Below, piece after piece: positions 7,090 to 40,810 of a DNA stretch of 44,239 nucleotides. Origin of the DNA: a virus. The stretch spans positions 1 through 44,239 of IMG/VR virus record IMGVR_UViG_3300006875_000005; one strand, given 5' to 3'. The notes beneath the pieces were generated by a model. That model searched no databases. It was not told where the DNA came from and worked only from the letters and a program-made list of their open reading frames with translations. A program made the translations under genes and the position numbers. The stretch's first letter is position 1, and each line of letters opens with the position of its first letter.

Positions 7090-8079
7090 ATGCCATCTGA
7101 GTCACAGATTCTTGCTCAATCGAAAGCGGCCTATAACCAATGGGCGAAGCAGTGGCGCGCGCACGCGACACTTCACTCTAAGTTTAAAATGAAGGACCTT
7201 TCTGATTTCGAAAACATCGGCGTCGGCCGCGCGATACTCTGTATCGCAAACGGCTATTCGTTCGAAGAGAACCTCGAGACGATTAAGGAACTTCAGGAGA
7301 ACGTCGACATCCTGGTCTGTGACAAAACACTCGGTCACTGCCTTAATCACGGCATTAAACCGACCTACGTCCTCGTGTGCGACGCAAACGTCTCTTTCGA
7401 GAAGTATCTCGAGCCGTGGAAAGACCAGGTTAAGGATATCGTTTTGTTTTCGAACGTCTGCGCCAATCCGCGGTGGACGCATGAGGCGAAATGGAAAGAT
7501 ATGTACTTCTTCGTAAACAAAGACATCATTAAGTCGGAGCAGGAGTTTTCTCGTCTCTCGGGCTGTCAGAACCAGATTCCAGCCGCGACGAACGTATCTA
7601 ACGCTATGGTTGTGTTCCTTACTCAGTCGGACGACCGCGGCCGTGCGAACTTCTTCGGTTACGATAAGATTCTACTTATCGGATACGACTTCTCCTGGAG
7701 ACCCGACGGGAAATATTACGCTTTCGATAGCGATGGCGGCGGGAAGAAAAACTACATGCGCCATATTTACTTGAACAATTTAAATAATAATTATTCGTAC
7801 ACGTCGGGGAACCTCGCGTTCTCCGCCGAGTGGTTGGAAAAATATATCAAGACGTTCAATTTGCCGGTGATACAATGCTCGAAAGAAACGATCATGCCCG
7901 GCAGATTCATGTCGAGTCTTGAGTCACAAATGAAGTATTCATACAAGAGAGAAGATGCCGGGATCGTGCGAGAGAAGGTAAGGAAGCGCAGAGAGCTTCT
8001 TCAGGCTCTCGGCGATATCGATGGGTCGCTTCGTATGATTGGACGTGAACATTACTATGCGTTTGCGTCTTCTATCTAG
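7090..8079 (+). CDS. DUF115 / Maf-type glycosyltransferase-like protein inside the tail operon
   Basis: A 329-residue protein that does not look structural. Residues about 45-110 resemble the DUF115 (MptE/Maf) core: RAILCIANGYSFEENL, then ILVCDKTLGHCLNHGIKPTY, then VLVCDAN. A second signature, DKILLIGYDFSW, is at about residues 196-207. Bacterial Maf proteins of this family transfer CMP-activated nonulosonic acids to Ser/Thr of flagellin. Here the gene lies between tail terminator and tail tube with normal spacing and SD. A virion protein as acceptor is an inference. The sugar cassette at 15.9-20.6 kb could supply the donor. A pterin-pyrophosphokinase-like role is the alternative. Confidence 0.7.
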   Translation: MPSESQILAQSKAAYNQWAKQWRAHATLHSKFKMKDLSDFENIGVGRAILCIANGYSFEENLETIKELQENVDILVCDKTLGHCLNHGIKPTYVLVCDANVSFEKYLEPWKDQVKDIVLFSNVCANPRWTHEAKWKDMYFFVNKDIIKSEQEFSRLSGCQNQIPAATNVSNAMVVFLTQSDDRGRANFFGYDKILLIGYDFSWRPDGKYYAFDSDGGGKKNYMRHIYLNNLNNNYSYTSGNLAFSAEWLEKYIKTFNLPVIQCSKETIMPGRFMSSLESQMKYSYKREDAGIVREKVRKRRELLQALGDIDGSLRMIGREHYYAFASSI

Positions 8080-8091
8080 GGAGGGAAGTAA

Positions 8092-9141
8092 ATGGCAGTA
8101 GGTCAGAACGCACTTGTTGGTTTCCCTTCTTATCTCGCGGTCGCACGCGAAACGACCTACGGCACTTACGTCACCGCTACGGCCGGAATCGAGTTTATCT
8201 CGTCTAGCCTTCGGACGATGAAGGAAGCAAAGGTCATTGAGGAAATCACCACGCATCGCGTGTACGCGGATACGATCAGTCTCGGTAAGAAGATCGAAGG
8301 AGATATCGAGATTCATTACGACCCGCGCTCGACTGCGGCCGCTTATTTGCTTCAGAATGCGATGGGCGGTGCGGCCATTACGTCTGCGACCGCCACGGGA
8401 GAGACGGCCGGAGGGAGTGCGTTTACGCATACGTTCACTCTCGGAAACTTCGACGCTACACACGGGTCGCTTTCTATCAATACTCGCAAGGGCGACTCGG
8501 CTTCGGCAAAGATTTTCGAGTTTACCGGACTTCGCGTAAACGAATTCACTCTAAATTCGGAGATCGACGAGGCGGTAAAGGCGACGTTCTCTTTGATCGG
8601 AAAAGACTCGACGATTTCGACAAACGACGTTTCGACGGCTATCGGAAACCTAAATCAGTGGCCACTTAGCTTCGTTAGCGGACGCGTGAGCGTCGAGAGT
8701 TCATTCGGTTCTTTGACCTCGACGTCGTTCTGGCATGTTCAAACGGTTGAGTTGACGATTGCAAACAATCTCAAGGCAGATGCAGATTCTCGACGCATAG
8801 GCTCGGACCTTCTTCAGGTATTGCCGCCCGGAGTGGCCGCGATCACGCTGAATATGACGATGCGGTTCGATACGACGACCGCCTACACGGCGATGATCAA
8901 CAATTCTCAGCTCGCTTGTGAGCTTGAGTTTTTGGGCGACACGCTGTCTGGTTCCGCGATCCGTCGCGGGATTAAAATTCAGATGCCGAAGATCTTCATC
9001 ACTGAGGCGTCGGATCCTGAGATTGGCGGGCCGGACGAGATTCTAAAAACCGAAGTTTCCGCACTCGTGCTTCGCGACTCATCAACCTCGACCGGATATG
9101 CGATTCGGGCGCTCGTGACAAACGATACGTCGAGTTATTGA
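8092..9141 (+). CDS. Major tail tube protein
   Basis: A 349-residue, beta-rich, threonine/serine-rich protein, with VGFPSYLAVARETTYGTYVT near the start, as in many siphophage tube proteins. It sits directly upstream of the G/GT tail chaperone genes, where the tube gene normally lies. It is longer than lambda gpV, so it probably carries an extra beta domain. SD GGAGG stands before ATG 8092. Its many Ser/Thr residues would be possible targets of the upstream Maf-like protein (speculative). Confidence 0.8.
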   Translation: MAVGQNALVGFPSYLAVARETTYGTYVTATAGIEFISSSLRTMKEAKVIEEITTHRVYADTISLGKKIEGDIEIHYDPRSTAAAYLLQNAMGGAAITSATATGETAGGSAFTHTFTLGNFDATHGSLSINTRKGDSASAKIFEFTGLRVNEFTLNSEIDEAVKATFSLIGKDSTISTNDVSTAIGNLNQWPLSFVSGRVSVESSFGSLTSTSFWHVQTVELTIANNLKADADSRRIGSDLLQVLPPGVAAITLNMTMRFDTTTAYTAMINNSQLACELEFLGDTLSGSAIRRGIKIQMPKIFITEASDPEIGGPDEILKTEVSALVLRDSSTSTGYAIRALVTNDTSSY

Positions 9142-9711: not shown

Positions 9712-11489
9712 TGGCACAGAAGGAAGCTACCCTAATACTTAAAGTAAAGGAGATGGGTTCTTCCGCGCTTGATAAAGTCGGGCTTGGAATCGCTACCATC
9801 GCAAGCGCCGCGGTCGCAGCCGGCGCAGCGATCGTTGGCTTTGCCGGACTCGCGCTTCGAAATTTTCGCGAACAAGAAGAGGCGACTAACCGCTTAAACC
9901 AAGCGATGGTCAACGCCGGCACCTTCACAACCGATCTTAGGGATAAGTATCTAGGTCTGGCGACATCGCTACAGAAGGTTACGACCTTTGGTGACGAGCA
10001 AATCATTTCGGCCACGGCAATTATTCAACAGTTCTCGAAGCAAAAAGAGGTCACCGAGGACGTTCTCAAGGCGACTCTTGATTTCGCTGCGGCCAAGAAG
10101 ATCGACCTGAATACTGCAGCGGAGCTTGTTGGAAAGACGATTGGCACGGGGACGAACGCGCTCGCGCGATACGGCATCGAAATCAACGCCGCCGCATCTT
10201 CGTCAGAGAAAATGACCGCCGTCACAAAGGGCCTTAGCGATACCTTTGGGGGTCAGGCCGAAGCCGCCGCGATGGGCCTCGGCTCAATAGAGCAGTTAAA
10301 GAATCGGCTCTCTGACTTTCTGGAAACAGTTGGTGAGCGTATCGCGCCGACGATAACGGCCATGATTGCAATCCTCGGACGCATGTTTACTGGGTTTGAG
10401 GAGAACAAGCACATTGTGGATGCGTTCGCGTTTGCGATCGACGCTGCGGCGAGAACGATGCTGGTATTGCGGCTGATCGTTGGGACCCTTGTTGAGAAGG
10501 TCCAGAACGACCTGTCTGCGGCATTTAAGGCGGTCAGCCTAGTAATGGATGGCGAATTCAAAAAAGCTGGCGAAGCTTGGGTTGCTGGGCAAAAAGCGAC
10601 CATCGATGACGTAAAGGAAAACTGGCGCACCTTTAACGAAGACATGTCGGCACTGTCTGCGGCGAGAAATCAAGACGAGCAAAACAAAAGGAAAGAGGAC
10701 GAGGAGAATTTTCGCGCTTCACTTGCAAACAAGAGAACGATCTCTCGCGAAGATGCACTCGCTGGGCAGGTCGAGGCGGAGCAGCAGCGTCTCGAGGCTA
10801 TGGCGGTTGAGAACGCGCAGATTGGGGCAAACGAAGAGCAGAAACTTGCGACTAAGATCTCCGCACTCGACAAACAGTTTCAAGCTGAATCAAATAACGC
10901 GGCCAAGCTCAAGCTTCTTAAGGACAAAGAAGGCCTCTTAAACCAACAGCGTGCGGCAAAGGAAGAGGCCTTTGAAAAACAGAAAAACGAAAATATTGTC
11001 CGCGACAGGCAGGCGACACTAAGCACGATTGCGACACTGCAGAATGCAAACAACCGAACTCTGGCGGCCATTGGTAAGGCTGCGGGCATCACCCAGATCG
11101 CAATTGAAACTCCTGTTGCCATCGCTCGGGCCCTGTCTGCGTTTCCTCCGCCATTCAACTTTATTGCGGCCGGTCTCGTGGGGACCGCGATGGCGGCGCA
11201 GGCTGCAAGAATTGCGGGCGTGCCTCTGGCTGAGGGCGGTATCGTGCGCGCAACGAACGGCGGTGTGCCCGCAATCATTGGTGAGGGTGGGCGTGATGAG
11301 GCGGTGATTCCGCTTGACGATCCTGACGCGCGCTCTCGGCTTGGCGGCGGAGGCGTTACCATTATTGTAAACGGGGGACTTCTTGGCGATCAGTCATCGG
11401 CGCGAGAGTTTGCCGTCGCAGTCGACCGCGAGCTTCTGAGGCTGCGTCAGAACAATGAAAGTCTTGCCTTTGACGAGGGGTTGGTCTGA
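9711..11489 (+). CDS. Tape measure protein
   Basis: A 592-residue protein with hydrophobic stretches near residues 20-50, long helical segments, a lysine/glutamate coiled coil around 310-440, and a hydrophobic region at 475-500. It ends in the usual tape-measure pattern (LAEGGIVRATNGGVPAIIGE, then EAVIPLD). Family members set tail length. At about 1.5 angstrom per residue this predicts a tail near 90 nm, short for a siphophage. ATG overlaps the GT stop. Confidence 0.9.
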   Translation: MAQKEATLILKVKEMGSSALDKVGLGIATIASAAVAAGAAIVGFAGLALRNFREQEEATNRLNQAMVNAGTFTTDLRDKYLGLATSLQKVTTFGDEQIISATAIIQQFSKQKEVTEDVLKATLDFAAAKKIDLNTAAELVGKTIGTGTNALARYGIEINAAASSSEKMTAVTKGLSDTFGGQAEAAAMGLGSIEQLKNRLSDFLETVGERIAPTITAMIAILGRMFTGFEENKHIVDAFAFAIDAAARTMLVLRLIVGTLVEKVQNDLSAAFKAVSLVMDGEFKKAGEAWVAGQKATIDDVKENWRTFNEDMSALSAARNQDEQNKRKEDEENFRASLANKRTISREDALAGQVEAEQQRLEAMAVENAQIGANEEQKLATKISALDKQFQAESNNAAKLKLLKDKEGLLNQQRAAKEEAFEKQKNENIVRDRQATLSTIATLQNANNRTLAAIGKAAGITQIAIETPVAIARALSAFPPPFNFIAAGLVGTAMAAQAARIAGVPLAEGGIVRATNGGVPAIIGEGGRDEAVIPLDDPDARSRLGGGGVTIIVNGGLLGDQSSAREFAVAVDRELLRLRQNNESLAFDEGLV

Positions 11490-13677: not shown

Positions 13678-14592
13678 ATGCCGAATGTAGCGACGATTAC
13701 CTCGAGCGACTTCACTTCGTTTCAACCGAGTACCAAGATTAAGAGCGCCGAAGTTAACTCAAACTTTGGAGTCTTTCGGGGACATCTTCTTCCGGTCGAC
13801 CCCACGATTTCGTCTGCCACGAATCTTAGCTATGATCTGGGCGCGACTGATCGCCGTTGGCGCTTTAGTTACTCCTCGCCCGTCATCAACTTGGCGGAAA
13901 CTACGGGATCAATGTCGATCCAATCGCATACTGATATTGCTCGCATCAGTGCTAGCGGAGGGACAGCAACCGCGACACTCCCGTCACTCTCGAGCCTTCC
14001 TATAGGACGACTGATAAACATCGAGAAGACCGACACGAGTTCTAGCGATGTTTTGATTTCTGGCAACGGGTCTAATATCGATGGAACAACGACTGCGTAT
14101 TTGCGGACTCTTAACGAGTCAGTAGCGATTGTTCGCGCGTCATCCGAATTCCGAATTGTGCGCCGTAATATTCCTTCGAAATGGGTTACCTTCACTCCCA
14201 CGGGCACTTGGTCGACGAATACAACCTACGTTGGTCGATGGCGCAGGGTTGGCGACTCGATGGAAATTCAAACTCAGATTCAGCTTAGCGGCGCGCCAAC
14301 GTCTACGGGCCTGATTGTCAACTTGCCGTCGGGCTACACGATTGATACCACGAAACTTGTCTCGGCAAGTGGAGCCAAGTCACTTGGATATGGAAAAATT
14401 CTTGATTCTGGCTCGTACAATGGTGTTGCGGCAGCCTATTATAATAACACAACCTCGGTCGAGGTTCGGTCTCTTAGTACAGCGGTAGCCTACAGTATGG
14501 TCGCGGTAACTCAGTCGGTACCATTCACGTTCGCGAACAATGATAATATTGATTTAACCTACGTCGTGCCGATCGTCGGATGGGGGGGCTAA
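13678..14592 (+). CDS. Tail fibre protein 1
   Basis: A 304-residue protein. The first 65 residues (KIKSAEVNSNFGVFRGHLLP, then NLSYDLGATDRRWR) are a paralogue of the start of the fibre at 14961-15830, so they are probably the virion-binding domain. The rest is serine/threonine/glycine-rich beta structure ending VVPIVGWGG, as in receptor-binding fibres. The start is one base after the previous stop. Confidence 0.75.
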   Translation: MPNVATITSSDFTSFQPSTKIKSAEVNSNFGVFRGHLLPVDPTISSATNLSYDLGATDRRWRFSYSSPVINLAETTGSMSIQSHTDIARISASGGTATATLPSLSSLPIGRLINIEKTDTSSSDVLISGNGSNIDGTTTAYLRTLNESVAIVRASSEFRIVRRNIPSKWVTFTPTGTWSTNTTYVGRWRRVGDSMEIQTQIQLSGAPTSTGLIVNLPSGYTIDTTKLVSASGAKSLGYGKILDSGSYNGVAAAYYNNTTSVEVRSLSTAVAYSMVAVTQSVPFTFANNDNIDLTYVVPIVGWGG

Positions 14593-14960: not shown

Positions 14961-15830
14961 ATGCCAACAACGATCACCGCTTATAATACCTTCACTGCAA
15001 ATACAAAGGCGCGAGCTAGCCAAGTTAATGCGAACTTCGACAACCACCGAGGTACGCTTGTCCCAATTAATTCGAATACTGCGACGGCTTCGAACCTTAC
15101 TCATGATTTAGGCTCGACCGAGCATCGCTGGCGAAACGGTTACGTGAGCGAGATGTACCTTGGCCAGACGACGTCGGGCTATCGGATCTACGACGACGCA
15201 ACGGCAAGTGGTTCGCTGACGTTTGAAAAACTCACCTCGTCGCCTACCGCAGGGGCGATTATCTTTCGGCTTGGCGGGACGACGTCTGCGCGAGTCCTTC
15301 CGACAGGTTTCGACGGGGAAACGGTTGCGCCCGGAACGCTTCCGTACACGGCCCATCCAACGCGTGCTGCGACGACAACCGCTGCTACAGGAGGCATTGC
15401 GATTAGCCCTACCATTAGTGCGATTGGTATTGTCACTACAGCAGCATACGCGCTTCCAAGTTCTACGATCACAATATCGTGCACGGGTCAGCGTCCTCTT
15501 TGGATCGGGTTTATCCCAGCAGGAATACCGTCAACTTTCCGCGGGGCTGCGAATACCACGTCAGCGCTGCAGGTTGGCGTGTTGGTTGAGATAGTACAAA
15601 ACGGCACATCTACGGCGGCTGTACAAACGAGGGTCCAGTTTGTTCCGTTGAACCTCACGACAACGGCAGTGAATAGTGGAGCGAATCAGATCGACATGCC
15701 GGCAAGCGCGGTCAATGGAATAATCTTCCCGAGCGCAGGAAACCATACCTTCTATGGTACAATTCGACAGGGTTTTACTGGAGCATCGGCCAACGCCTTC
15801 ACTATGCGCCTTTGTGCGTACGAGCTTTGA
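14961..15830 (+). CDS. Tail fibre protein 2
   Basis: A 289-residue protein whose N-terminus (KARASQVNANFDNHRGTLVP, then NLTHDLGSTEHRWR) aligns with that of fibre 1. The remainder is a different beta-rich, Thr/Ser/Ala-rich domain. Two fibres with a common anchor and unlike tips suggest two host-recognition specificities or a duplication with domain swapping. It is the last gene of the structural operon; the next promoter-like palindrome is at 15844. Confidence 0.75.
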   Translation: MPTTITAYNTFTANTKARASQVNANFDNHRGTLVPINSNTATASNLTHDLGSTEHRWRNGYVSEMYLGQTTSGYRIYDDATASGSLTFEKLTSSPTAGAIIFRLGGTTSARVLPTGFDGETVAPGTLPYTAHPTRAATTTAATGGIAISPTISAIGIVTTAAYALPSSTITISCTGQRPLWIGFIPAGIPSTFRGAANTTSALQVGVLVEIVQNGTSTAAVQTRVQFVPLNLTTTAVNSGANQIDMPASAVNGIIFPSAGNHTFYGTIRQGFTGASANAFTMRLCAYEL

Positions 15831-15888: not shown

Positions 15889-16833
15889 ATGTCGCTCGCA
15901 TATTCGATCTATCGAGCCAAATACCGATTCGGTCGGTACTTGCCGCTTAGAAAGCCCGTAGATGTCTCCCTTGAGCTCGCCGCTGCCTGTAATCAGCGCT
16001 GCGGTTATTGCTATTGGGCAGAGCCGGACAAGGTCCCGTTTAAACGCGGCATGATGGCGCGTGACACAGCTTTCGAGATCATCAAGCAATGTTCTGATCT
16101 CGGCGTGCCTAGTCTAAAGTTTAACTGGAGGGGCGAGTCGACTCTTAACCCGCACTTTCTTGAGATCACCGCTTATGCGAAAAGCCTGGCGAGCGGTTCG
16201 ACATTTATTGATCGCCTGACGAACTCCAATTTTAAGTTTCCGAGTCATCGTGAGGATATTTTTGAAGGGCTCTGCAACCAAACGAAGGTGAAGGTTTCTT
16301 TCGATTCGTTTATCAAAGATGTTTTCGAAACACAGCGGGCGGGCGCGCGGTACCATCAAGCGCTTACGAATATTGATCTTTTTTATCATCACCCGAGGCG
16401 CAAAGATACCGAGCTCGTGATACAGGCGGTCCGAACCGCGCGGAACCTTGAAGAGGACATTGAGGGCGAGGTAAAGAAGCGCTGGCCATCGGCGACGGTC
16501 AGTATTCGCAATGTGGTCGAGGGAAGGCGTAGCGAGTCGATCTCGGATATCGCGGTTCTCGAGCGCCCGAAAGAGCGGCAATCCTGTCTGCAGGCGCACG
16601 TGCGACTGATTTTCTCTCATGATGGCAACGCATCTCCTTGCTGTCCTTCGATCTCCGATCAGCTTTATCTGGGAAACATCAAGGACAGTTCGGTAAAAGA
16701 GATTTTTAACTCGGCAATGGCCCGAGAGCTTCGGAAAGATCTTAAGTCGGGCGTGGCGTTTAAACTAGACCCGTGCAAAACCTGCTCGTCGTTCGAATCA
16801 TACAAGGGCTTTCGCCCGTCGTGGAACTCATGA
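15889..16833 (+). CDS. Radical SAM/SPASM-like protein
   Basis: A 314-residue protein with the radical SAM CxxxCxxC motif at C34/C38/C41 (ACNQRCGYCYW). A C-terminal cysteine group (ASPCCPS, then DPCKTC) resembles a SPASM domain that binds extra Fe-S clusters. Such enzymes use S-adenosylmethionine to start radical chemistry on sugars, peptides or cofactors; the substrate here is not evident. First gene of a five-gene cassette with overlapping ends (ATGA with the next gene). The ATG lacks a good SD (only CCGGA). No host metabolic neighbour is present. Confidence 0.85.
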   Translation: MSLAYSIYRAKYRFGRYLPLRKPVDVSLELAAACNQRCGYCYWAEPDKVPFKRGMMARDTAFEIIKQCSDLGVPSLKFNWRGESTLNPHFLEITAYAKSLASGSTFIDRLTNSNFKFPSHREDIFEGLCNQTKVKVSFDSFIKDVFETQRAGARYHQALTNIDLFYHHPRRKDTELVIQAVRTARNLEEDIEGEVKKRWPSATVSIRNVVEGRRSESISDIAVLERPKERQSCLQAHVRLIFSHDGNASPCCPSISDQLYLGNIKDSSVKEIFNSAMARELRKDLKSGVAFKLDPCKTCSSFESYKGFRPSWNS

Positions 16834-18122
16834 AAACAGGAATCGTTGTCTGCACTCGTCTTAACTCTTCTCGTGTGCCCGGAAAGGCTGTACGCGAGAT
16901 AAATGGCGTTCCACTTATCCGTCATCTGGTCCGGCGCTTAAAGCGCACGGGCCTTCCGGTCGTTCTTGCGTTGCCTCAAGAAGATCTAAAACCAATCACC
17001 GATGCTCTGGGAGAGGATGCTCCGCCACTCGGCTTTACGATAGGCCATCCCAACGATCCGCTTGCGAGGACGTACCAGGCCGCCAAGGACCATGGGCTCG
17101 ATCGCGTTGTGCGTGTCAGTCACGACAAGATTTTCGTCAGCGACCTGCTGTCTGAGATCGAAGACCTACCAATCGATGCCGACTATTGCTTCAGTCCCGG
17201 CTTTGCGGCCGGAACCGGATTTGAAGTTATATCTTTCCGCGCACTAAGGGCAGCGGCGGAAAAGTACAAGAACGTAGAGTTCATCGGTTACGCCGTAAAA
17301 TCAGTCACGGACAAGATCTTTCAAATTCAGGCCAGAAGCGAATCTCAAGACGACCGGCTGCTAATCGATTTTCCTGAAGATCTTAGTCTAATGGAATTGA
17401 TACTGGCGTCTTGCGGAAACGACTGCACAACTAAGGACGCGCTGGAGTTCTTAAAAGCAAATCCGTGGGCCCGGAAGATCAATCGGCTTCCAAGGCTGAC
17501 GCTCTATACGTGCGTCTATAACGGTGAGAAGTTTATCGAGCGCGCCATGGGTTCCGTTTCGTCGCAGAATGGATTTCGCGACTTCGAGTATATCATTGTT
17601 GATGATCACTCGACCGATCGAACGACGAAGCTAATAGCAAAGTTTTGCACGCTATACCCGAATGCAAGATGGATTCGGAATCGAGAGAACCTTGGCCTTG
17701 CGAGCTCGTCGAATATCGCTCTGAAGAATGCAAGATCCGAGTTCATCATGCGTCTCGACGCGGACGATTATTTTTCCTCGTTTTTCTCCGCTCAAGAGAT
17801 GTTGAACTGCATTCAATCCCAAGGGCTTGATGCCGTTTACCCAGACTGTTACTTCGGCAGCAAAACAAAGGTTCAACCGGGTTCGGAAAGCCATCATGTT
17901 GGTGGGGCGATCTTCCGCACACGCGCCGTGAACCACGTTAAATTCACCGAAAGACTTCGCGGTTACGAGGGGCTAGATTTCTTCGTGCGAGCGAAAGATC
18001 AGATCAAAATCGGGTACTTTTCTTCGCCAACTTTCTTCTATACACAGCGGCCGGACTCGTTAAGTAAAACGAACCTCGAAGAGCGGGCAAAGATCAAAGA
18101 GGAAATAGATGCGAAAGCATAA
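16830..18122 (+). CDS. CMP-sugar synthetase-like domain fused to a GT2 glycosyltransferase
   Basis: A 430-residue fusion. Residues 1 to about 205 resemble the SpsF/CMP-NeuNAc/KdsB cytidylyltransferases: VVCTRLNSSRVPGKA at 6-20 is the nucleotide-binding loop and VSHDKIF at 96-102 a likely metal/sugar site. Residues about 222-430 are a GT-A family 2 transferase: YTCVYNGEKFIERA, VDDHSTD (257-263), and the metal-binding DAD at 310-312. One protein could therefore activate a sugar with CTP and transfer it or a second sugar. I place the start at ATG 16830, overlapping the previous stop by four bases. Upstream in-frame codons are not used. Confidence 0.85.
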   Translation: MKTGIVVCTRLNSSRVPGKAVREINGVPLIRHLVRRLKRTGLPVVLALPQEDLKPITDALGEDAPPLGFTIGHPNDPLARTYQAAKDHGLDRVVRVSHDKIFVSDLLSEIEDLPIDADYCFSPGFAAGTGFEVISFRALRAAAEKYKNVEFIGYAVKSVTDKIFQIQARSESQDDRLLIDFPEDLSLMELILASCGNDCTTKDALEFLKANPWARKINRLPRLTLYTCVYNGEKFIERAMGSVSSQNGFRDFEYIIVDDHSTDRTTKLIAKFCTLYPNARWIRNRENLGLASSSNIALKNARSEFIMRLDADDYFSSFFSAQEMLNCIQSQGLDAVYPDCYFGSKTKVQPGSESHHVGGAIFRTRAVNHVKFTERLRGYEGLDFFVRAKDQIKIGYFSSPTFFYTQRPDSLSKTNLEERAKIKEEIDAKA

Positions 18123-18483
18123 CTCGATCGACCTTCTCGCGCTGTATGCAAAGGGTAGCGCAAACGGATGGAATAAGTTTCTTACTGAGTGTCTCGAGTC
18201 GCACAACGTAGCAAGGTTAAGCCGGATGATGTATGCGCTTCAGGCCGGCATGGATGACCTTTCAAAGAAGAAGCTTAACGACGAGAAGATTATTCAGTTC
18301 TACATTCGACTTCTTAAGTCGATCGAGAACACGCTTAAAGCAATCTTGCGGGCGAAGTACCCTACGCCCCTCGACAATTCACTAAAATCAAAAGACTCCG
18401 AGTATGCGAGGGCAAAGTGGAAAGAGATTAAGAAGAAACGCGATCAAGAGTTCGAAAAGTTCTTAAGAAAGTCGAGTTACTAA
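18109..18483 (+). CDS. Small helical protein of the glycan cassette
   Basis: A 124-residue, lysine-rich, all-helical protein, overlapping the preceding gene by 14 bases and followed without a gap by the next gene. It has no signal peptide and no membrane segment. It ends in a basic helix (KWKEIKKKRDQEFEKFLRKS). I do not recognise a family; coupling to its neighbours implies a role with the transferase or synthase. Confidence 0.65.
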   Translation: MRKHNSIDLLALYAKGSANGWNKFLTECLESHNVARLSRMMYALQAGMDDLSKKKLNDEKIIQFYIRLLKSIENTLKAILRAKYPTPLDNSLKSKDSEYARAKWKEIKKKRDQEFEKFLRKSSY

Positions 18484-19323
18484 ATGAAAAACGAATTCGC
18501 CCAGCGTCGAACGTGGGGCCCGGCCCCGAAGTATCCGAGCGTAATCGATTACTGTCCGACACAAGATGAAGATGAGTTTATCGTTGTTGCCGGGCCATGT
18601 TCTGTCGAGAGCGATCGTCAGATTAAAGAGATCGCGTCTCTCGTCGCGTCTGCGGGCGCCACACATCTGAGAGGCGGCGTTTTCCGCGCGGGAACATATC
18701 CAGGGGCAAACTTTGGTTGGGTCGATCGCGATCTGATTAAGTCGTATAAACGAGCAGCTTCGGCGAATGGACTTCGAAACATCATTGAGATCTTAGAGTA
18801 TGATCGGCCGGAAATGCTTGAGTTCATTCTCGAGAACGCGGACTGCGTTCAGGTTGGCGCGCGGCAGATGCAAAACTATACGCTGCTCCGTCGCTTAGGG
18901 AAAACAGGAAAGACCGTGTTTCTGAAACGAAATCCTGGCGCGACCCTAGACGAGTGGCTCGGCGCTGCTGAATACATTATCGCGTCGGGCGGGAAGCCGA
19001 TTCTTATCGAGCGCGGATCGGCAACACACGCAAATCATGTGCGCTGGGATTTATCAATCAGCATGATTCCTGCTGTTCAGGCGATCACAAAGATTCCGAT
19101 TATTGTCGATGCGTCACACGGGACGGGTCGCCGAGACCTCGTAAGTCCCATGACACTTGCCGGGATTGCTGCTGGCGCAAACGGAATGCTTGTTGAAGTT
19201 CACTACGACCCGAAGAACAGTCTATCAGACGCGGATCAGGCTATCGAGCCGACTGAATTTTTCGAACTCATGAGAAAGACAAAGCTACTGAGACACATTT
19301 TAAAGAAGGAATCTGCGGCATGA
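18484..19323 (+). CDS. DAHP/Kdo8P synthase-family enzyme with altered acceptor loop
   Basis: A 279-residue protein of the class I DAHP synthase family, which joins PEP to an aldose phosphate to make a 3-deoxy-ulosonic acid. Conserved metal and PEP residues are visible: GPCSVES at 37-43 (C39), VGARQMQN at 124-131, FLKR 146-149, E176, VDASHGTGRRD 208-218 (H212) and VEVHYDP (E238). The loop that in aromatic-pathway enzymes reads KPRT is here FRAGTYPGANFGW (67-79), and the usual RTFE region is THANHVRW. These are acceptor-binding positions, so the aldose is probably not erythrose 4-phosphate. With the CMP-synthetase-like partner, a CMP-ulosonate pathway is plausible. Confidence 0.8.
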   Translation: MKNEFAQRRTWGPAPKYPSVIDYCPTQDEDEFIVVAGPCSVESDRQIKEIASLVASAGATHLRGGVFRAGTYPGANFGWVDRDLIKSYKRAASANGLRNIIEILEYDRPEMLEFILENADCVQVGARQMQNYTLLRRLGKTGKTVFLKRNPGATLDEWLGAAEYIIASGGKPILIERGSATHANHVRWDLSISMIPAVQAITKIPIIVDASHGTGRRDLVSPMTLAGIAAGANGMLVEVHYDPKNSLSDADQAIEPTEFFELMRKTKLLRHILKKESAA

Positions 19324-20615
19324 GATGCGTGATCTGTGACTCAAACGACTGGGAAAACGTCGACCGCTTCCGGATTAAAGCCGAAGGCATGTGCATGTGC
19401 AAGAAGTGCGGCTTTATCTCATACCCTTCGAAGTGGAAATCTGAAGATGAAATGAAGCAGTATTATCGAAAGGATTATCGAAATCCGCCGAAGGTCTCGA
19501 ACTTTTTCACCGGCCAGCGCAAACTTCACTACCACAATGCGTTTCTTCGCCCGCTGTTTGACGAATGGGCAGAGGCGGGTAAGTCTCGGCCCGTTGTCTG
19601 CGAGATTGGTGCTGCCTATGGGATGTTCTTGAATTACCTTAAAGAAGTCGTACCTGGCGCCGAGGTCTACGGAACTGAACTCACGCTTTCCTATCGACGA
19701 AACGCATTCCATGAATTTGGCCTGAACCTCACCGAGGAATTCGATCATTCGCGCGATTACGATTTGATTTGCTCTTATAAGGTCGCGGAGCATCAATTCG
19801 ATATTGATCGCTATCTTATGCTCTATCGGAGCAAGCTTAAGCCGGGCGGATATCTCTACATCAGTGTCCCAACCTGGTTAAACCGGATGACAAATTTTGG
19901 GGCCTCGGGCTTCGACCTCGAATACTATTACCATCCGAATCACATCAACGTTTGGACGCGTACTCTATTTGAGACACTTTTGAATAAATGCGGTTTCAAG
20001 ATCGTGCGCTACAATAACTCGATGTATGACGACACGTATCTCTGCGTAGCAGACGAGCGGGTTGCTAACGATCCTCCGGCCTACGAAAGTCCCGATGAGA
20101 TTCTCGGAAAACTTGAGCGTATACACAGAGCGGGGATCGCCTATCTCGAGGGCCGGTTCGACGATGCGATTGCGACGTGGCCGGATTTCCCCGAGGCTCA
20201 TGTCTCGCGCTACGAAGGGAAGAGGGCGGAGTTTCACAAGGGTTCTTTTAAATCCGTCTTAGAGAACGTCATCGACGTTGCGGTCAAGTCTTGCCCTGAT
20301 TCACCAGAGGCCTGGGGGCTCGCGGGCGACCTCCACATGCGCTACGACAAGTTTCACGATGCAATTAAATGTTTTGAAAAGGTCCTAGAGCTTCGTCCGG
20401 GCCAGTCATCAGCACTTCGTGGGATCGCGCACTCTCTTAGATCACTTGGGAACATCGCCGCGCGCAGCGGTCAATTCTCCGAGGCGACGGGATACTATAC
20501 CGAAGCACGAAATGTGACGCGCTACCTGCGACAAGTATCAGAACAAGATCAGCACGATGCGCTGACGTGGGTCTACGACGATAACTCTCGAATCCCGATG
20601 CCGAGCGAGGCTTGA
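19320..20615 (+). CDS. SAM methyltransferase with zinc-binding N-terminus and TPR tail
   Basis: A 431-residue protein. The first 30 residues hold two CxxC pairs (C3/C6; C27/C30), as in sugar C-methyltransferase-like proteins that bind zinc. The class I methyltransferase core follows (VCEIGAAYGMFLNY at 93-106, then a later GGYLYISVPTW). Residues about 285-400 carry tetratricopeptide-like helices (AWGLAGDLHMRYDKFHDAIK, then CFEKVLELRPG). Overlaps the synthase stop by four bases and ends the cassette. Likely methylates the sugar or glycan; the substrate is not visible. Confidence 0.8.
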   Translation: MRCVICDSNDWENVDRFRIKAEGMCMCKKCGFISYPSKWKSEDEMKQYYRKDYRNPPKVSNFFTGQRKLHYHNAFLRPLFDEWAEAGKSRPVVCEIGAAYGMFLNYLKEVVPGAEVYGTELTLSYRRNAFHEFGLNLTEEFDHSRDYDLICSYKVAEHQFDIDRYLMLYRSKLKPGGYLYISVPTWLNRMTNFGASGFDLEYYYHPNHINVWTRTLFETLLNKCGFKIVRYNNSMYDDTYLCVADERVANDPPAYESPDEILGKLERIHRAGIAYLEGRFDDAIATWPDFPEAHVSRYEGKRAEFHKGSFKSVLENVIDVAVKSCPDSPEAWGLAGDLHMRYDKFHDAIKCFEKVLELRPGQSSALRGIAHSLRSLGNIAARSGQFSEATGYYTEARNVTRYLRQVSEQDQHDALTWVYDDNSRIPMPSEA

Positions 20616-27897: not shown

Positions 27898-27986
27898 CCG
27901 GCGCGGTAGTGGTAATCAGCTTCATGATTCTAACGGGGTACGTGATTAAACAGCTTTTGGAATACAAAAAGGGGGACCGCAAATGA
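27894..27986 (+). CDS. Tiny membrane protein
   Basis: A 30-residue single-span protein (TGAVVVISFMILTGYVIKQL, then a basic tail). ATGA overlaps at both ends and GGAGGAG just upstream support translation. It may assist the SPFH lipoprotein that follows. Confidence 0.55.
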   Translation: MTGAVVVISFMILTGYVIKQLLEYKKGDRK

Positions 27987-28762
27987 GAATGCTTCTGCTG
28001 GGAATGCTTGCGTTGAATTTAACCGCATGTGGCTTCGAGATCGTTGACACTGGCCATCGCGGAATTAAGACCCGCTTCGGCGAGGTCGTCGGCGAGCCGC
28101 TGCCCGAAGGCATGCACTTCTACAACCCGGTAACGTCAGGCATTCGCGAATATGCCGTTCGCGAAGAGAAATGGGCCGACAAAACGGCCATTTTCACCAA
28201 GGACACTCAGCGGGTTGATATCGAGTTCGCGGTCGTATTCTATCCTGACCCGAAGCAGGTCCATAATTTGTATCGCGAAGTTGGACTGGACTATGAGCTT
28301 GCAGAGAAGATCATTCGTCCCGTCGTCCTCGGATCTATCAAGGACGCGATTGGGCAAGTCATCGCAGACGAGCTGGTCTCGAAACGCGAACTCGTGACCA
28401 AGGAAGCGCTTCGAGAAGTTCAAGAAAACCTCAAGGCACGCAGCGTGATCGTAACTGACCTTCAATTCACAAATTTAGACTTCGACGACGCATATGAGCA
28501 GGCGGTCGAGCAGAAGGTCGTTGCAATCCAAGATGCTCAGCGCGCCAAGAACGAAACGGTACGGATTGAAGAAGAAGCGAAGCAAAAAGTAAAGACCGCC
28601 GAGGCCGATGCGGAGTCGATGCGGATCAAGTCCCAGGCGCTCTCGCAGAACAAAGGGCTCGTCGAATTTGAAGCTGTACAGAAATGGGATGGCAGACTGC
28701 CGCAGTACATGTTCGGCAGTCAGACGACTCCGTTCATCGATCTCCGTTCGATGAAGCAGTGA
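27983..28762 (+). CDS. SPFH/Band-7 domain lipoprotein
   Basis: A 259-residue protein of the stomatin/prohibitin/HflK-HflC superfamily. A lipoprotein signal (LLLGMLALNLTAC, C16) is followed by the SPFH core (VDTGHRGIKTRFGEVVGEPL; YNPVTSGIREYAVR; RVDIEFAVVFYPDP). A long charged coiled coil (about 170-225, rich in EEEAKQKVKTAEADAE) follows, as in oligomer-forming members. Bacterial SPFH proteins control membrane proteases such as FtsH, which in lambda infections degrades CII. A role in the lysis-lysogeny choice, or in keeping the membrane intact, is inference. Confidence 0.85.
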   Translation: MRMLLLGMLALNLTACGFEIVDTGHRGIKTRFGEVVGEPLPEGMHFYNPVTSGIREYAVREEKWADKTAIFTKDTQRVDIEFAVVFYPDPKQVHNLYREVGLDYELAEKIIRPVVLGSIKDAIGQVIADELVSKRELVTKEALREVQENLKARSVIVTDLQFTNLDFDDAYEQAVEQKVVAIQDAQRAKNETVRIEEEAKQKVKTAEADAESMRIKSQALSQNKGLVEFEAVQKWDGRLPQYMFGSQTTPFIDLRSMKQ

Positions 28763-29259: not shown

Positions 29260-29481
29260 ATGAAGAAATTCGCGACAAGAGCAAAGGAACTCGAGAGCCT
29301 GGAGCTCATCACGATCGATGAGTGTGTGAAACGCATTCAGGAGCTGTATCGACTTCCAGAGCCGCCATACAAAAAGCAGACGATGCACAAATGGATCAGC
29401 CAAAAGCAGATCAATCGGTACGGCCCCCGGCACATGGCACTTGTTGATTGGAACGAAGTGCGAAGAAAGAAGTGCTCGTGA
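29260..29481 (+). CDS. Excisionase-like DNA-binding protein
   Basis: A 73-residue protein from ATG 29260 (GAGGAG before it). ITIDECVKRIQELYRLPEPP, followed by TMHKWISQKQINRYG, is the winged-HTH pattern of excisionase/MerR-like proteins. It directly precedes and overlaps the integrase gene, as xis normally does. It would direct excision at the attachment site at 30.65 kb. Confidence 0.75.
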   Translation: MKKFATRAKELESLELITIDECVKRIQELYRLPEPPYKKQTMHKWISQKQINRYGPRHMALVDWNEVRRKKCS

Positions 29482-30617
29482 GACGCGAGAAGACCTCCGA
29501 GAAAAACTTATACCGCGTTGGCAATGCGTATTGGTACCGACGCGGAGACTTTGAGCGTTCACTTGGCGAGTATCCGACCGAGAAGAAGGCGATCGAATAC
29601 AAGCGGCACTTCGAAGCAAAGCTACGCGGCGACGGCCTGATGGCTCATCAGCTTCGGGTCGCGCCGCTGTTTGAAGAATACCTCGCCGAGCGCGAAGCCG
29701 AGATGCTGGGGAAGGTCCCGGGTCGACGTCAGATCAGTCCCGGCACGTTCAAAGAGACCAAAGACATTTGGGAACTTCACTTGTTCAAAGCGTTCGGAAC
29801 TAAGCGCCTTGCAGAGGTGAACGATCCGCTGTGGTCGCGGTACTGCGACACTAAAGACCTTGACCTCACAAATCACCGGAAGGTTCTTAAGCACTTCCTG
29901 ACCTCGTGCAAAATCAAAGGCTATCTCCAAACGCTGCCGATCCTTCCAATACCAAAGGTTGAACGCCGGGTGCGAATGATCCTCACGCCCGATGAGATAG
30001 GCCGCGTGCTGACGAACTCAAGCGGGACGCTCTTACTGTTTGTCTCGCTATACCTGTTCATGGGCGTTCGCTGGTCGGAATCAATTCGCCTGAAGCAGAA
30101 GTCGGTCTTCTTGGATGAAAACTTCCTCGTCATTGAGCGCGGAACAAGCCGAACCAGGCGTGGTCGAGAGATCCCGTTAAATGCGTTTGTAGCGGCCTTG
30201 CTGCGCGAGCGGATGACGGGGACGGCAAAGGGTAGCCCTTGGGTCTTCCCGAAGCGTGGCGCCCCCAAAGAACACATGTCGATGACCGGGATTAATAACC
30301 CATGGCGGGTGATGAAACGTAAGGCGGGGCTTCCTGACCTGCGCCCGCACGATCTGCGGGCAACGTTCGAGTATTACGCAAACAAGCGGGCAGATTTCAC
30401 CGATACGCAACGCGAGAAGTTCGCCGGCGCGAGCATTGAGGTTCAACGTCGCCATTACGTCTCGTTCAAGGCTGATGACGTGCGCGGGCTTGAAGAATCA
30501 GTGCAGTTTGCAGGTCTCGATCGTGTACTTGCTGCGAAACTAGAGGCGGGTAAAACACGGGTAATCGAGCTGCCTGTCAGGAAATTAAAGCGCGCAAGCG
30601 GCGGGAACAAGAGATGA
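29478..30617 (+). CDS. int: Tyrosine-family site-specific integrase
   Basis: A 379-residue recombinase. An N-terminal arm-binding region is followed by a core-binding region (about 60-160) and the catalytic domain: R198 (MGVRWSE), H291-x-x-R294 (RPHDLRAT) and Y327 (RRHYVSF). The second conserved histidine (GHxS) is replaced by AGAS (317-319), a known tolerance. Start taken at GTG 29478 (GTGA overlap with the excisionase). The attP core with a tRNA half follows 32 bases downstream. Confidence 0.9.
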   Translation: MRREKTSEKNLYRVGNAYWYRRGDFERSLGEYPTEKKAIEYKRHFEAKLRGDGLMAHQLRVAPLFEEYLAEREAEMLGKVPGRRQISPGTFKETKDIWELHLFKAFGTKRLAEVNDPLWSRYCDTKDLDLTNHRKVLKHFLTSCKIKGYLQTLPILPIPKVERRVRMILTPDEIGRVLTNSSGTLLLFVSLYLFMGVRWSESIRLKQKSVFLDENFLVIERGTSRTRRGREIPLNAFVAALLRERMTGTAKGSPWVFPKRGAPKEHMSMTGINNPWRVMKRKAGLPDLRPHDLRATFEYYANKRADFTDTQREKFAGASIEVQRRHYVSFKADDVRGLEESVQFAGLDRVLAAKLEAGKTRVIELPVRKLKRASGGNKR

Positions 30618-38109: not shown

Positions 38110-38295
38110 ATGGCGCGTGAAACCGGGATACTTACGCTAAGGGAAGCAGAGCGAAACGAAATCGAATACGCACTTGCGTTTCATAAGGGAAACGTAAGAC
38201 CAGCGGCACGCGATCTCGGAATCGCGTTTGCGACTCTCTATCGAAAGATTAAAGAGTATCAAATCGATCTAGCGAGCATACGAAAGTCGAAATGA
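38110..38295 (+). CDS. Fis-type HTH protein
   Basis: A 61-residue protein made of a Fis/NtrC-C-terminal HTH (EIEYALAFHKGNVRPAARDL, then GIAFATLYRKIKEYQIDL). As a stand-alone domain it may dimerise and control the glycan genes that follow with ATGA overlap, or late transcription more widely. Confidence 0.75.
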   Translation: MARETGILTLREAERNEIEYALAFHKGNVRPAARDLGIAFATLYRKIKEYQIDLASIRKSK

Positions 38296-39797
38296 TTCTC
38301 CCAAGTCCGCCGAATGATCACGAGAAGTATCTCTACGTTGACCAGAATAAGTGGCTTATCTACGGATGGGGCCTCGTCTCGTTCCTACTGCTCGTCGCCG
38401 GGATGGCGATTTTCGCGGTTCATCACAATTACTTCGTCGTCTACGTCGCGTTTACGATCATTACGGCGTTCTATCTTGGCGTTTCGTACTGGATTGGCGT
38501 CTTCGGGAAACCGTTTGATCTGACGAAACACGAAGACGTCCGACGAAATACGATCACAAATAATCTCTCCGTCGACGTCTACTTGCCGTCTTGTGGCGAA
38601 CCGCTCGAGGTTCTCGAGAATACCTATCGTCATGTCCGCGCCCTTCGATGGCCCGAGGGGAAACTTCACGTCTGGGTCCTAGACGATTCGCATCGCACGG
38701 AAGTCGCGATGCTTGCTGATCGTTTCGAATTTAACTACATCGCTCGTCCGAACCGCGGCGAACTAAAAAAAGCCGGAAACGTTCGCTATGCGTTCGCGCG
38801 TACGACAGGTGAACTGATCTTAATCCTCGACGCTGATTTCTGTCCTCGGCCCGACATGCTCGAGGAAATGGTCCCGTACTTTAATCGTGACGCCGGCCTT
38901 GCGATCGTACAGTCGCCGCAATACTTCGAGCTTAAAGCCGGACAGTCCTGGGTCGAGAAGGGGGCAGCCTATGTGCAAGAGCTCTTTTATCGAATGGTGC
39001 AAACTAATCGCGATACTTGGGGTGCTTCTATCTGCGTTGGGACTTGCGCACTGTACCGTCGAGCGGCGCTGGCGCCCCACGGAGGAACTTATCCCATAGC
39101 GTATAGCGAGGACCTTCACACGGGATGGCAGGCGATCGTCGACCGCTGGCGCGTAAAGTATCTTCCTCTAAATCTCGCTAAGGGCATCTGTCCCGAGACC
39201 ATGTCCGCTTACTGGGTTCAACAAACTCGGTGGTGTACGGGGTCGACGTCTCTGCTTCTCTCTAAGAAATTCTGGACGACTCCGCTTCCGTCTTTCATGA
39301 CTCGACTGTGTTACATCAGCGGCATGTTTTATTACGTCGCAACAGCACTTTCGGTGATCTTAACGCCTTTGCCGGCGCTCATCGTCGTATGGTTCCATCC
39401 TGAAAACGTCTTCTGGTACAACTACCTATTCTCGTTGCCGAGCTTTATCTTCGGCGTCCTTATCGTTGCCATGTGGGGCCGGGCACCATTTGGCGCATAC
39501 GTCCTTTCCGCCCGGCAAGTCTCATACTATGCGCACCTCTTTGCCCTTTGGGACAAGCTTAAGGGATCGATGGTCGCATGGGTTCCGACGGGCGACACGA
39601 AGACCATGAAGTCCGTTAGACGCTATTTGGACTTTAAACGTGTCATGTTTTTCTGGGTCTCGATTACGACAGCACTCGCGTTTGCAGGCGCGTTCTATCG
39701 CATGGACGAACTATCGAACTACAATTTCTATCCGCTTCTGTTCTTCAGTGGTTTTCATTACTGGGTTTCGATGCGGGCGTTCTCGGAGGAGTCTTGA
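38292..39797 (+). CDS. Membrane-embedded processive GT2 polysaccharide synthase (BcsA-like)
   Basis: A 501-residue protein with two N-terminal membrane segments (about 22-42, 47-70), a cytosolic GT2 domain, and about four more membrane segments after 334. All catalytic marks of processive synthases are present: DD at 131-132, DAD at 180-182, ED at 273-274 (YSEDLHTGW) and QQTRW at 310-314. The PilZ domain that binds cyclic-di-GMP in cellulose synthase is absent, so control should differ. Such enzymes polymerise a UDP-sugar and push the chain through the membrane. It overlaps the next gene, a UDP-sugar epimerase. Confidence 0.9.
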   Translation: MILPSPPNDHEKYLYVDQNKWLIYGWGLVSFLLLVAGMAIFAVHHNYFVVYVAFTIITAFYLGVSYWIGVFGKPFDLTKHEDVRRNTITNNLSVDVYLPSCGEPLEVLENTYRHVRALRWPEGKLHVWVLDDSHRTEVAMLADRFEFNYIARPNRGELKKAGNVRYAFARTTGELILILDADFCPRPDMLEEMVPYFNRDAGLAIVQSPQYFELKAGQSWVEKGAAYVQELFYRMVQTNRDTWGASICVGTCALYRRAALAPHGGTYPIAYSEDLHTGWQAIVDRWRVKYLPLNLAKGICPETMSAYWVQQTRWCTGSTSLLLSKKFWTTPLPSFMTRLCYISGMFYYVATALSVILTPLPALIVVWFHPENVFWYNYLFSLPSFIFGVLIVAMWGRAPFGAYVLSARQVSYYAHLFALWDKLKGSMVAWVPTGDTKTMKSVRRYLDFKRVMFFWVSITTALAFAGAFYRMDELSNYNFYPLLFFSGFHYWVSMRAFSEES

Positions 39798-40810
39798 AAG
39801 TTCTCGTTACCGGATGTGCTGGCTTTATCGGATCACACGTCACCGATGCGCTGCTCGCAGAAAACCACTCAGTTGTTGGCATCGACAACCTCTCGAACGG
39901 CTTCTATGCGAACATGTCGCAGGCGTTCAATCGGAAAGACAAGTTCACCTATTTCACTGCGGACCTTTGCGACGGCATGTCCCTGCGAAATATCTTCATG
40001 AGCCAAAAACACAAAGGTGAGCCGATCACGCATGTCTGCCACCAAGCTGCCCTTGGTTCCGTGCCGCGGTCGATGGAAATGCCGGTTGAGGTAATCGAGA
40101 ACAACGTGAAAGCCCTCAACAACGTGCTTGAAATGGCCCGAACATTCGGCGTCGAGCGCGTAGTTTATGCTTCGTCGAGTTCCGTCTATGGTGATGATCC
40201 TCTCAAGACGAAGTGCGAGCAGAGTACGGGTAAGGCACTCTCGCCGTACGCTCTCTCGAAGCAAATGAAAGAGTCTCTCGCGGACACGTACGCGCGCGTG
40301 TACGGCGTAAAATCAATCGGTCTTCGATATTTCAATGTATTCGGTCATCGACAAGCTCACTCCGGAGCGTATGCCCCAGTCGTCGCTCGATGGGCCAATC
40401 TGCTGAAAGAAGGAAAGCAGATCGAGATCTTCGGAACAGGCGAAGCGTCGCGCGATTTTTGCTACGTGAAAAACGTCGTTCAGGCGAATCTTTTGGCACT
40501 CAAGGCGCCGATCGCGCCAGGCGTCTCAGCCCCTTACAACATCGCATGTGGCGAGACGACGAGCCTAAATAAGCTGCTCTTGATGATGATGAGTGTTCTT
40601 GGAATTGACGAATCGATCGTACGGGTCGTTCGAAGACAAGAGCGCCATGGTGACATCAAGTCGTCTTTGGCCGACATTTCTCGGGCGCGCGTACAGCTCG
40701 GGTATCGGCCACAGTACTCGGTTCTCGACGGTCTCTATGATCTGTTCGGGAAACCTAAAGTCGAAAGTAATGGAGTCCTTTTGCCTGTAGGCTCTCGCGC
40801 GACAGGATAG
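39794..40810 (+). CDS. UDP-sugar 4-epimerase, WbpP/TviC-like
   Basis: A 338-residue short-chain dehydrogenase-type protein: NAD site TGCAGFIG (6-13), catalytic SSSSVYG (127-133), Y152 and K156 (YALSK). The segment HQAALGSVPRS (83-93) is typical of the group that epimerises UDP-GlcNAc or UDP-GlcNAcA (WbpP, TviC) rather than plain UDP-Glc. Together with the dehydrogenase it could produce UDP-GalNAcA. Its 3' end overlaps that of the dehydrogenase by 56 bases in opposite orientation. Confidence 0.9.
   Translation: MKVLVTGCAGFIGSHVTDALLAENHSVVGIDNLSNGFYANMSQAFNRKDKFTYFTADLCDGMSLRNIFMSQKHKGEPITHVCHQAALGSVPRSMEMPVEVIENNVKALNNVLEMARTFGVERVVYASSSSVYGDDPLKTKCEQSTGKALSPYALSKQMKESLADTYARVYGVKSIGLRYFNVFGHRQAHSGAYAPVVARWANLLKEGKQIEIFGTGEASRDFCYVKNVVQANLLALKAPIAPGVSAPYNIACGETTSLNKLLLMMMSVLGIDESIVRVVRRQERHGDIKSSLADISRARVQLGYRPQYSVLDGLYDLFGKPKVESNGVLLPVGSRATG

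Follow-up and report, generated by a model that had tools for sequence, protein, structure and literature searches.

Can a bacteriophage make and activate a sugar acid of its own and, if so, what would the sugar be used for? The question is raised by five consecutive genes at 15889-20615 of the viral sequence IMGVR_UViG_3300006875_000005 (IMG/VR; 44,239 nucleotides (nt), in the following the window), which lie behind genes for tail-fibre-like proteins. An earlier interpretation made from the DNA letters alone, here called the sequence-only reading, saw in this cassette a pathway to ulosonic acids activated with cytidine monophosphate (CMP), as in the route to 3-deoxy-D-manno-octulosonic acid (Kdo). 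Our analysis makes it reasonably probable that the cassette, together with a gene for a Maf-like protein further upstream, forms a phage-encoded CMP-ulosonate glycosylation system for the phage's own virion proteins; judging from the families involved, it would O-glycosylate these proteins, and probably those of the tail.

A synthase exchanged within one slot

The fourth gene of the cassette encodes a protein that matches the Pfam model DAHP_synth_1, named for 3-deoxy-D-arabino-heptulosonate 7-phosphate (DAHP) synthase, with 152.8 bits against a cut-off of 25.5 (E 1e-44). DAHP synthases are also its best matches in the PDB and in NCBIfam, where its scores fall below the DAHP cut-offs (TIGR01361, 246.9 against 267.75 bits; NF006421, 276.1 against 335 bits). 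The residues for phosphoenolpyruvate (PEP) and metal (C39, R63, R127, K148, R177, H212, E238 and D249, with roles assigned by mapping to E. coli AroG) are kept in 20 of 20 members of the phage family to which the window's synthase belongs, and the same 20 have R-A-G-T in place of the erythrose 4-phosphate (E4P) motif K-P-R-T. Bacterial homologues keep K, P, R and T in 80, 78, 79 and 76 of 80 cases, respectively. With the motif columns masked, the phage synthases of the AGT type form a single clade (Shimodaira-Hasegawa-like approximate likelihood ratio test, 100), and further variants in the same slot among phages read SAGT, GGGT, KYRS and KPLT.

In 12 contigs this slot is filled by a synthase of the NeuB family. 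Four of these proteins were scanned and match PF03102 with E values from 2e-12 to 7e-34; at about 200-260 amino acids (aa), the slot proteins consist of the NeuB domain only and are without the usual C-terminal SAF/antifreeze-like domain. The metal-ligand histidine motifs (SDH, EKH) are present in all 11 that were aligned. When the two synthase types are mapped onto the tree of the protein encoded by the second cassette gene, parsimony requires at least eight changes of state; if only well-supported branches are counted, the NeuB label must still have changed at least five times. Individual cassettes tell a similar story: L124 and L139 share radical SAM (S-adenosylmethionine) and second-gene flanks that are about 70% identical (66-75%, at the DNA or protein level), the synthases between these flanks differ, and similarity resumes at the start of the methyltransferase gene. 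Both synthase types occur in two contigs. In L134 a NeuB-like protein (10763-11446) that has lost both histidine motifs (reading GYKDK and EKNI) stands beside an intact RAGT synthase, the state one would expect if one synthase replaces the other, and perhaps an exchange caught in progress.

We take the exchange to be a functional replacement. It would be difficult to account for if the two types did not both supply a 3-deoxy-2-ulosonic acid to one and the same downstream machinery. Because NeuB enzymes are swapped in and the E4P motif has been lost, the reading of the window's protein as an ulosonate synthase is supported; the conserved PEP and metal ligands and the NeuB replacement likewise uphold the earlier assignment to the PEP-dependent 3-deoxy-ulosonate synthases.

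Activation and transfer of the sugar

The second gene encodes a cytidylyltransferase fused to a family 2 glycosyltransferase (GT2), with both parts recognised by Pfam (CTP_transf_3, 32.4 against 22.6 bits; Glycos_transf_2, 88.6 against 23.3 bits). Searched against the PDB, the cytidylyltransferase profile matches 6oew over the full length of the domain (E 5e-23) and KdsB (8e-13), and GT2 structures are matched as well. The nucleotide-binding motif RxxSxRxPxK and the metal aspartates are well conserved (S32, R34, K38, D118 and D199 in 44 of 44 fusion proteins, R29 in 42, P36 in 39), as are the acidic residues D329, D331 and D332 of the GT2 domain (44/44). The domain is thus CMP-sugar-synthetase-like, as the sequence-only reading had it; that reading had named a lack of CTP binding here as grounds for abandoning the pathway, and motif residues and fold matches gave no such grounds. 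We predict that the domain activates a 2-ulosonate with CTP. Overall, synthase, NeuB exchange and cytidylyltransferase motif lend support to the ulosonate pathway as first proposed, whereby the sugar and the activities it names continue to be predictions.

Which enzyme would then transfer the activated sugar? GT2 enzymes normally use nucleoside diphosphate (NDP)-sugars, and we know of no GT2 enzyme that uses CMP-ulosonates, which is why we looked for another transferase. A candidate is encoded at 7090-8079. This protein matches the Maf-like family PF01973 with 58.3 against 34.6 bits (E 1e-15); its best NCBIfam match is the flagellin modification protein PseD, at 29 bits against a cut-off of 670. 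Its profile finds the Maf structure 5mu5 first among PDB entries (1.1e-5), followed by an archaeal 6-hydroxymethyl-7,8-dihydropterin pyrophosphokinase (HPPK; 1.5e-3). An AlphaFold2 model (predicted local distance difference test score, pLDDT, 94) aligns with 5mu5 over 236 residues at 2.8 A (Z 21.4), and Foldseek alone recovers the same match at 3e-10. The next folds are HPPK (8sd5, Z 15.6) and SteA (Z 10.9), and then come CMP-sialic acid sialyltransferases, including ST8SiaIII, Cst-I and CstII (Z 8-10.5); matches below Z of about 8 were disregarded. Maf enzymes use CMP-nonulosonates as donors for the glycosylation of Ser/Thr, and CMP-Kdo can serve as a donor as well (PMC11339370). On sequence family and modelled fold, the Maf-like protein, which the sequence-only reading missed, appears to be the stronger of the two candidates for the role of CMP-ulosonate transferase, ahead of the GT2 domain of the fusion.

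The position of this gene suggests an acceptor. Of the loci, 119 have the length needed for a test, and in all 119 the gene that directly follows the Maf-like gene encodes a homologue of the 8092-9141 tail protein, often after a gap of 12-25 nt; this neighbour is, by position, probably the major tail (tube) protein. Known Maf genes act on flagellins, which are tube-forming proteins as the tail tube protein is. Ser and Thr together make up 22.6% of the 8092-9141 protein, 27% of tail-fibre-like protein 1 and 24% of tail-fibre-like protein 2. Protein 1 has no family match; the two fibre-like proteins (13678-14592 and 14961-15830) share an N-terminal domain that is found just upstream of most cassettes. 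As to the link between Maf-like gene and cassette, the former occurs in 37 of 39 cassette contigs, the two without it being fragments of 24-27 kb. Note that contigs with a Maf-like gene and no fusion gene end within about 9 kb downstream of the Maf-like gene, so that the absence is uninformative.

Recurrence of the cassette

The same five-gene order had been suggested as something to look for in other phages. About 50 other IMG/VR contigs have it, complete or incomplete and often right after tail fibres, with identities of roughly 25-65%: radical SAM/SPASM protein, cytidylyltransferase::GT2 fusion, small helical open reading frame (ORF), PEP-dependent synthase, Zn-ribbon methyltransferase::TPR (tetratricopeptide repeat) protein. 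Given this recurrence, the order is not due to chance. The 50 contigs besides the window come from alignment searches with the synthase and the fusion protein, and a few are duplicates or fragments; a search of IMG/VR for close relatives of the synthase returned 16 contigs, nearly all of them with the five-gene order after tail-fibre genes.

Elsewhere the cassette was not found. Nothing comparable is present among 50,697 GenBank phage records, in which the synthase search returned only DAHP synthases of less than 60% identity (from records without annotation, which in many cases are short contigs), the fusion protein has no match covering 80% of the query, and neither the radical SAM protein nor the Maf-like protein has any match. 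In bacterial contigs from 84,980 species (genome_contigs), no RAGT synthase is among the best 80 of 209 relatives, which are DAHP synthases of the KPRT type. At E 1e-30 the fusion profile found a match in none of 101 genomes of one phylum, a search that had no positive control and shows little. A report of phage-encoded synthase, activation and transferase together was not found in the open-licence literature.

Several of the IMG/VR contigs show peculiarities of their own. Four (3300006641_000168, 3300007234_000382, 3300025818_003042 and 3300025889_019713) have a portal identical to that of the window and are the same virus assembled more than once. The portal reads through one in-frame TAG in G130 (the contig of L136; 29969-32158) and G133 (the contig of L140; 1773-3950), which could be a sequencing error or stop-codon suppression. 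In L135 the fusion gene (7298-8654, numbered as in L116) is split across two overlapping frames, either by a frameshift of the phage or by an assembly error. Divergent cassettes L149, L153, L157, L158, L160, L162 and L163 carry an additional NAD-dependent epimerase/dehydratase-like gene 3' of the fusion gene, and L159 carries a nucleotide-sugar-dehydrogenase-like gene; judging by their sequences, these extra genes possibly encode precursor enzymes.

The remaining cassette proteins

Profile searches, gene by gene, place four of the five cassette proteins in families. The presence of a radical SAM/SPASM protein, part of the sequence-only reading, is confirmed by a SPASM match above cut-off (Pfam, 42 against 21.5 bits; E 9e-11), the Radical_SAM model itself scoring under its cut-off (16.6 against 29.5 bits), and by eight cysteines, C34, C38 and C41 of a CxxxCxxC motif along with C233, C251, C252, C296 and C299, that are invariant in 42 of 42 homologues. 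The best PDB match of its profile is BtrN (E 1.4e-15, in the C-terminal third only), a radical SAM dehydrogenase of an aminocyclitol, a likeness that is in line with a sugar as predicted substrate.

For the fifth gene the sequence-only reading was right about the methyltransferase (Methyltransf_23, 55.5 against 27 bits) and missed the rest of the protein, namely a four-cysteine Zn-ribbon and a half made of TPR repeats. Residues C3, C6, C27, C30, G97, G101, E120, E157 and H158 are conserved in all 43 homologues. The TPR part of FlmG from Caulobacter is said to bind the acceptor; by analogy, it is possible that the TPR half of the phage methyltransferase helps to find the acceptor. FlmG is described in PMC7591256 as a modular flagellin glycosyltransferase.

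The 124-aa protein is without a family. It has one viral homologue (49% identity), was not recognised in several divergent cassettes, and ends in a conserved C-terminus, KRxxDxEFExFLxKxSY in the alignment. Its AlphaFold2 model consists of five helices (pLDDT 86) and finds no PDB fold match at E <= 0.001; the sequence search gave none that was convincing.

Gene organization and expression

All five ORFs placed after the tail fibres by the sequence-only reading are present on the plus strand and are translationally coupled, with successive overlaps of 4, 14, 0 and 4 nt (Table 1). The fusion ORF is open from a GTG at 16773; since homologues begin at the position of the ATG at 16830, the alignment makes this ATG, which overlaps the stop codon of the radical SAM gene as ATGA, very probably the start. 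The earlier suggestion of a promoter-like element before the cassette did not survive: no sigma-70-like site was found on the plus strand between 13500 and 22490, and the total of such sites in the region equals the expectation from shuffled sequence. The cassette is part of one colinear run of genes from the portal to a CHAP endolysin, in which no gap exceeds 174 nt. This suggests, as the simpler reading, that it is expressed late and together with the structural genes, i.e. when virions are built. No long hydrophobic segment is found in the cassette proteins or in the Maf-like protein.

Table 1. Cassette genes, candidate transferase and candidate acceptors in the window.
Feature	Position	Strand	Basis
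Radical SAM/SPASM-Twitch protein, 314 aa	15889..16833	+	SPASM match
SpsF/KdsB-like cytidylyltransferase::GT2 fusion, 430 aa	16830..18122	+	Pfam, PDB profile matches
Small all-helical protein, 124 aa	18109..18483	+	Alignment, AlphaFold2 model
PEP-dependent synthase, DAHP synthase fold, motif RAGTYP (canonical KPRTSP), 279 aa	18484..19323	+	DAHP_synth_1, residue table, tree
Four-Cys Zn-ribbon + class I SAM methyltransferase + TPR, 431 aa	19320..20615	+	Methyltransf_23, TPR (Pfam)
Maf-like (PF01973) glycosyltransferase, candidate CMP-ulosonate protein O-transferase, 329 aa	7090..8079	+	PF01973, fold
Tail protein, candidate acceptor by adjacency	8092..9141	+	phrog_290 (tail), E 2e-32
Tail-fibre-like protein 1, alternative acceptor	13678..14592	+	Named by position and shared N-terminal domain
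Tail-fibre-like protein 2, alternative acceptor	14961..15830	+	Directly 5' of the cassette

Predicted pathway

Taken together, these proteins suggest the following route. The DAHP-fold synthase (or, in sister phages, the NeuB type) would condense PEP with a host-derived aldose to give a 2-keto-3-deoxy sugar acid, which the SpsF/KdsB-like domain, judged by family and motif, would convert with CTP to the CMP-ulosonate. The radical SAM/SPASM protein and the methyltransferase may tailor the sugar or glycan. The Maf-like protein would then take the ulosonate from CMP and attach it to Ser/Thr residues in the tail, with the major tail protein encoded next to it as the most likely acceptor and the fibres as possible ones, while the GT2 domain might add a further or priming sugar from an NDP-sugar or itself use the CMP-sugar. 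Since the window holds no genes for the aldose precursor beside the cassette, the precursor must come from the host.

A more specific proposal, which we put forward tentatively and with less than even confidence, is that a temperate tailed phage lineage makes a probably undescribed 3-deoxy-2-ulosonic acid by means of a DAHP-fold enzyme adapted to a new aldehyde, and that a stand-alone transferase of the Maf type attaches this acid to the phage's own tail. Which sugar is made would then change in the course of evolution as one type of synthase (RAGT, GGGT, KYRS or NeuB) takes the place of another in the slot.

Alternative explanations

A number of observations speak against a virion glycosylation system. 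Only residues 237-513 of the 632 of 5mu5 are aligned, the other Maf domains being without a counterpart in the 329-aa phage protein, and the fold of that protein is also the fold of the archaeal pterin pyrophosphokinase. The co-occurrence of Maf-like gene and cassette is weak evidence by itself and would also be expected of one broad phage lineage, which these phages are, given that the portal too is common to 34 of the 39 cassette contigs. Neither Ser/Thr richness nor adjacency identifies an acceptor, the fused GT2 domain does not fit a CMP donor well, and no kinase, phosphatase or aldose-precursor gene accompanies the cassette in the window. Finally, the phages are uncultivated, and the system is known here from its genes, with its function predicted.

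How do other scenarios fare in comparison? Imagine that the fused GT2 domain, covalently joined to the cytidylyltransferase and with its acidic motif invariant, were the only transferase, and the PF01973 protein an unrelated tail-region protein such as an assembly factor or a kinase acting on pterins or nucleotides. PF01973 does include MptE kinases, and HPPK is the second-best fold; however, Maf ranks above HPPK in both profile and structure comparison, and CMP-sialic acid transferases follow in the fold list, which makes this scenario quite improbable. Alternatively, the same CMP-ulosonate pathway might place its product on a host surface glycan (capsule or lipopolysaccharide, LPS), with receptor masking, superinfection exclusion or lysogenic conversion as the outcome. 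An integrase gene (29448-30617) makes lysogeny plausible, and the phage nonulosonate-modifying genes that we found described act on host capsule (PMC12053666, PMC6586298). We nevertheless consider this unlikely: the genes sit in the late structural region rather than in the position of a lysogenic-conversion module, a description that polysaccharide genes at 38292-42047 fit better; the cassette has no flippase, polymerase or membrane-anchored transferase; and the closest fold of the candidate transferase is that of a protein O-glycosyltransferase.

Two further scenarios dispense with a glycan altogether. Peptides are frequent substrates of SPASM radical SAM proteins, and the cassette could serve to produce a small molecule activated with CMP or to modify DNA or a peptide, the substrate being the 124-aa protein. 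Weak NCBIfam matches to peptide-maturing SPASM members and the conserved C-terminus of the 124-aa protein fit this idea; that protein, however, is predicted to be folded and helical and is not recognised in several divergent cassettes, no base-modifying gene was seen among the cassette neighbours, and a PEP synthase that comes paired with a cytidylyltransferase suggests sugar acids, so that we regard it as very improbable. Most remote of all is an ordinary auxiliary metabolic gene, with the synthase serving aromatic or other small-molecule metabolism, an outcome that the sequence-only reading had named as fatal to its own proposal. The DAHP synthase fold and best database matches would agree with it, whereas the sub-cut-off scores, the loss of the KPR residues in all 20 members, their separate clade, the NeuB type in the same slot and the regular linkage to a cytidylyltransferase do not; motif, cut-offs and NeuB replacement led us to reject an aromatic-pathway role.

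Other genes of the window

The polysaccharide genes just mentioned form a second glycan set, possibly a lysogenic-conversion module. It comprises a cellulose-synthase-like GT2 (38292-39797), a TviC-like UDP-sugar epimerase (39794-40810) and, on the minus strand, a TviB-like UDP-sugar dehydrogenase (40755-42047), all under curated equivalog cut-offs. An SPFH/Band 7 lipoprotein-like protein is encoded at 27983-28762, in the early or middle region.

Significance and comparison with known systems

If the proposed virion glycosylation system is real, phages would go beyond attaching sugars made by the host: they would produce an acid resembling sialic acid, activate it and use it on the virion, and the type of sugar would be exchanged by swapping one gene. 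Virion glycosylation could then be studied in a tractable case beyond actinobacteriophages; the Maf enzyme would be a minimal one, and the DAHP/Kdo8P synthase fold would gain a new class of substrates. The exchange of DAHP synthase and NeuB types makes the functional kinship of the two families directly testable.

Among phages, those of mycobacteria offer one point of comparison. According to papers that cite Freeman et al. 2023, mycobacteriophage glycosyltransferases and a methyltransferase reportedly act on capsid and tail tube. Phage-encoded enzymes of both kinds are, going by these accounts, what the two systems have in common; in contrast to the cassette, no sugar-acid biosynthesis is mentioned for mycobacteriophages in the relevant passages of the citing papers. 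Glycosylation of the mycobacteriophage capsid and tail tube is cited in PMC11600133 and PMC12619734. The Acinetobacter phage genes (epaA/epaB; O-acetyltransferases) resemble the cassette in that phage genes touch nonulosonic acids; they differ in altering a host-made sugar on the host capsule and do not synthesise it.

In function, the cassette stands nearest to bacterial systems, namely Maf-type flagellin glycosylation and the activation of Kdo or legionaminic acid. With the Kdo route (KdsA/KdsB) the cassette has in common a PEP-dependent synthase of the same superfamily and a KdsB-like cytidylyltransferase, but its synthase is nearer to DAHPS-I-beta than to KdsA, there is no KdsC phosphatase or KdsD, and linkage to LPS genes is lacking. 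The B. subtilis sps pathway (SpsE, SpsF), in which SpsF acts in a CMP-legionaminic acid route (PMC7439481), likewise pairs an SpsF-like cytidylyltransferase with a PEP-condensing synthase; in the phages the SpsF-like domain is fused to a GT2 and the modifying enzymes differ, and the target in Bacillus is the spore crust. The Maf flagellin systems of Campylobacter, Aeromonas and Clostridium (5mu5; CMP-pseudaminic and CMP-legionaminic acid) combine a synthase (of the NeuB type, as in 12 of the phages), a CMP-sugar synthetase and a Maf transferase, and the phages resemble them further in that the gene of the Maf-like transferase adjoins that of a tube-forming structural protein. The phage version differs in being phage-borne and without precursor enzymes, in a transferase that consists of the central Maf domain only, in a synthase that usually has the DAHP fold with a new aldehyde motif, and in the addition of a radical SAM protein, a GT2 fusion and a methyltransferase-TPR protein.

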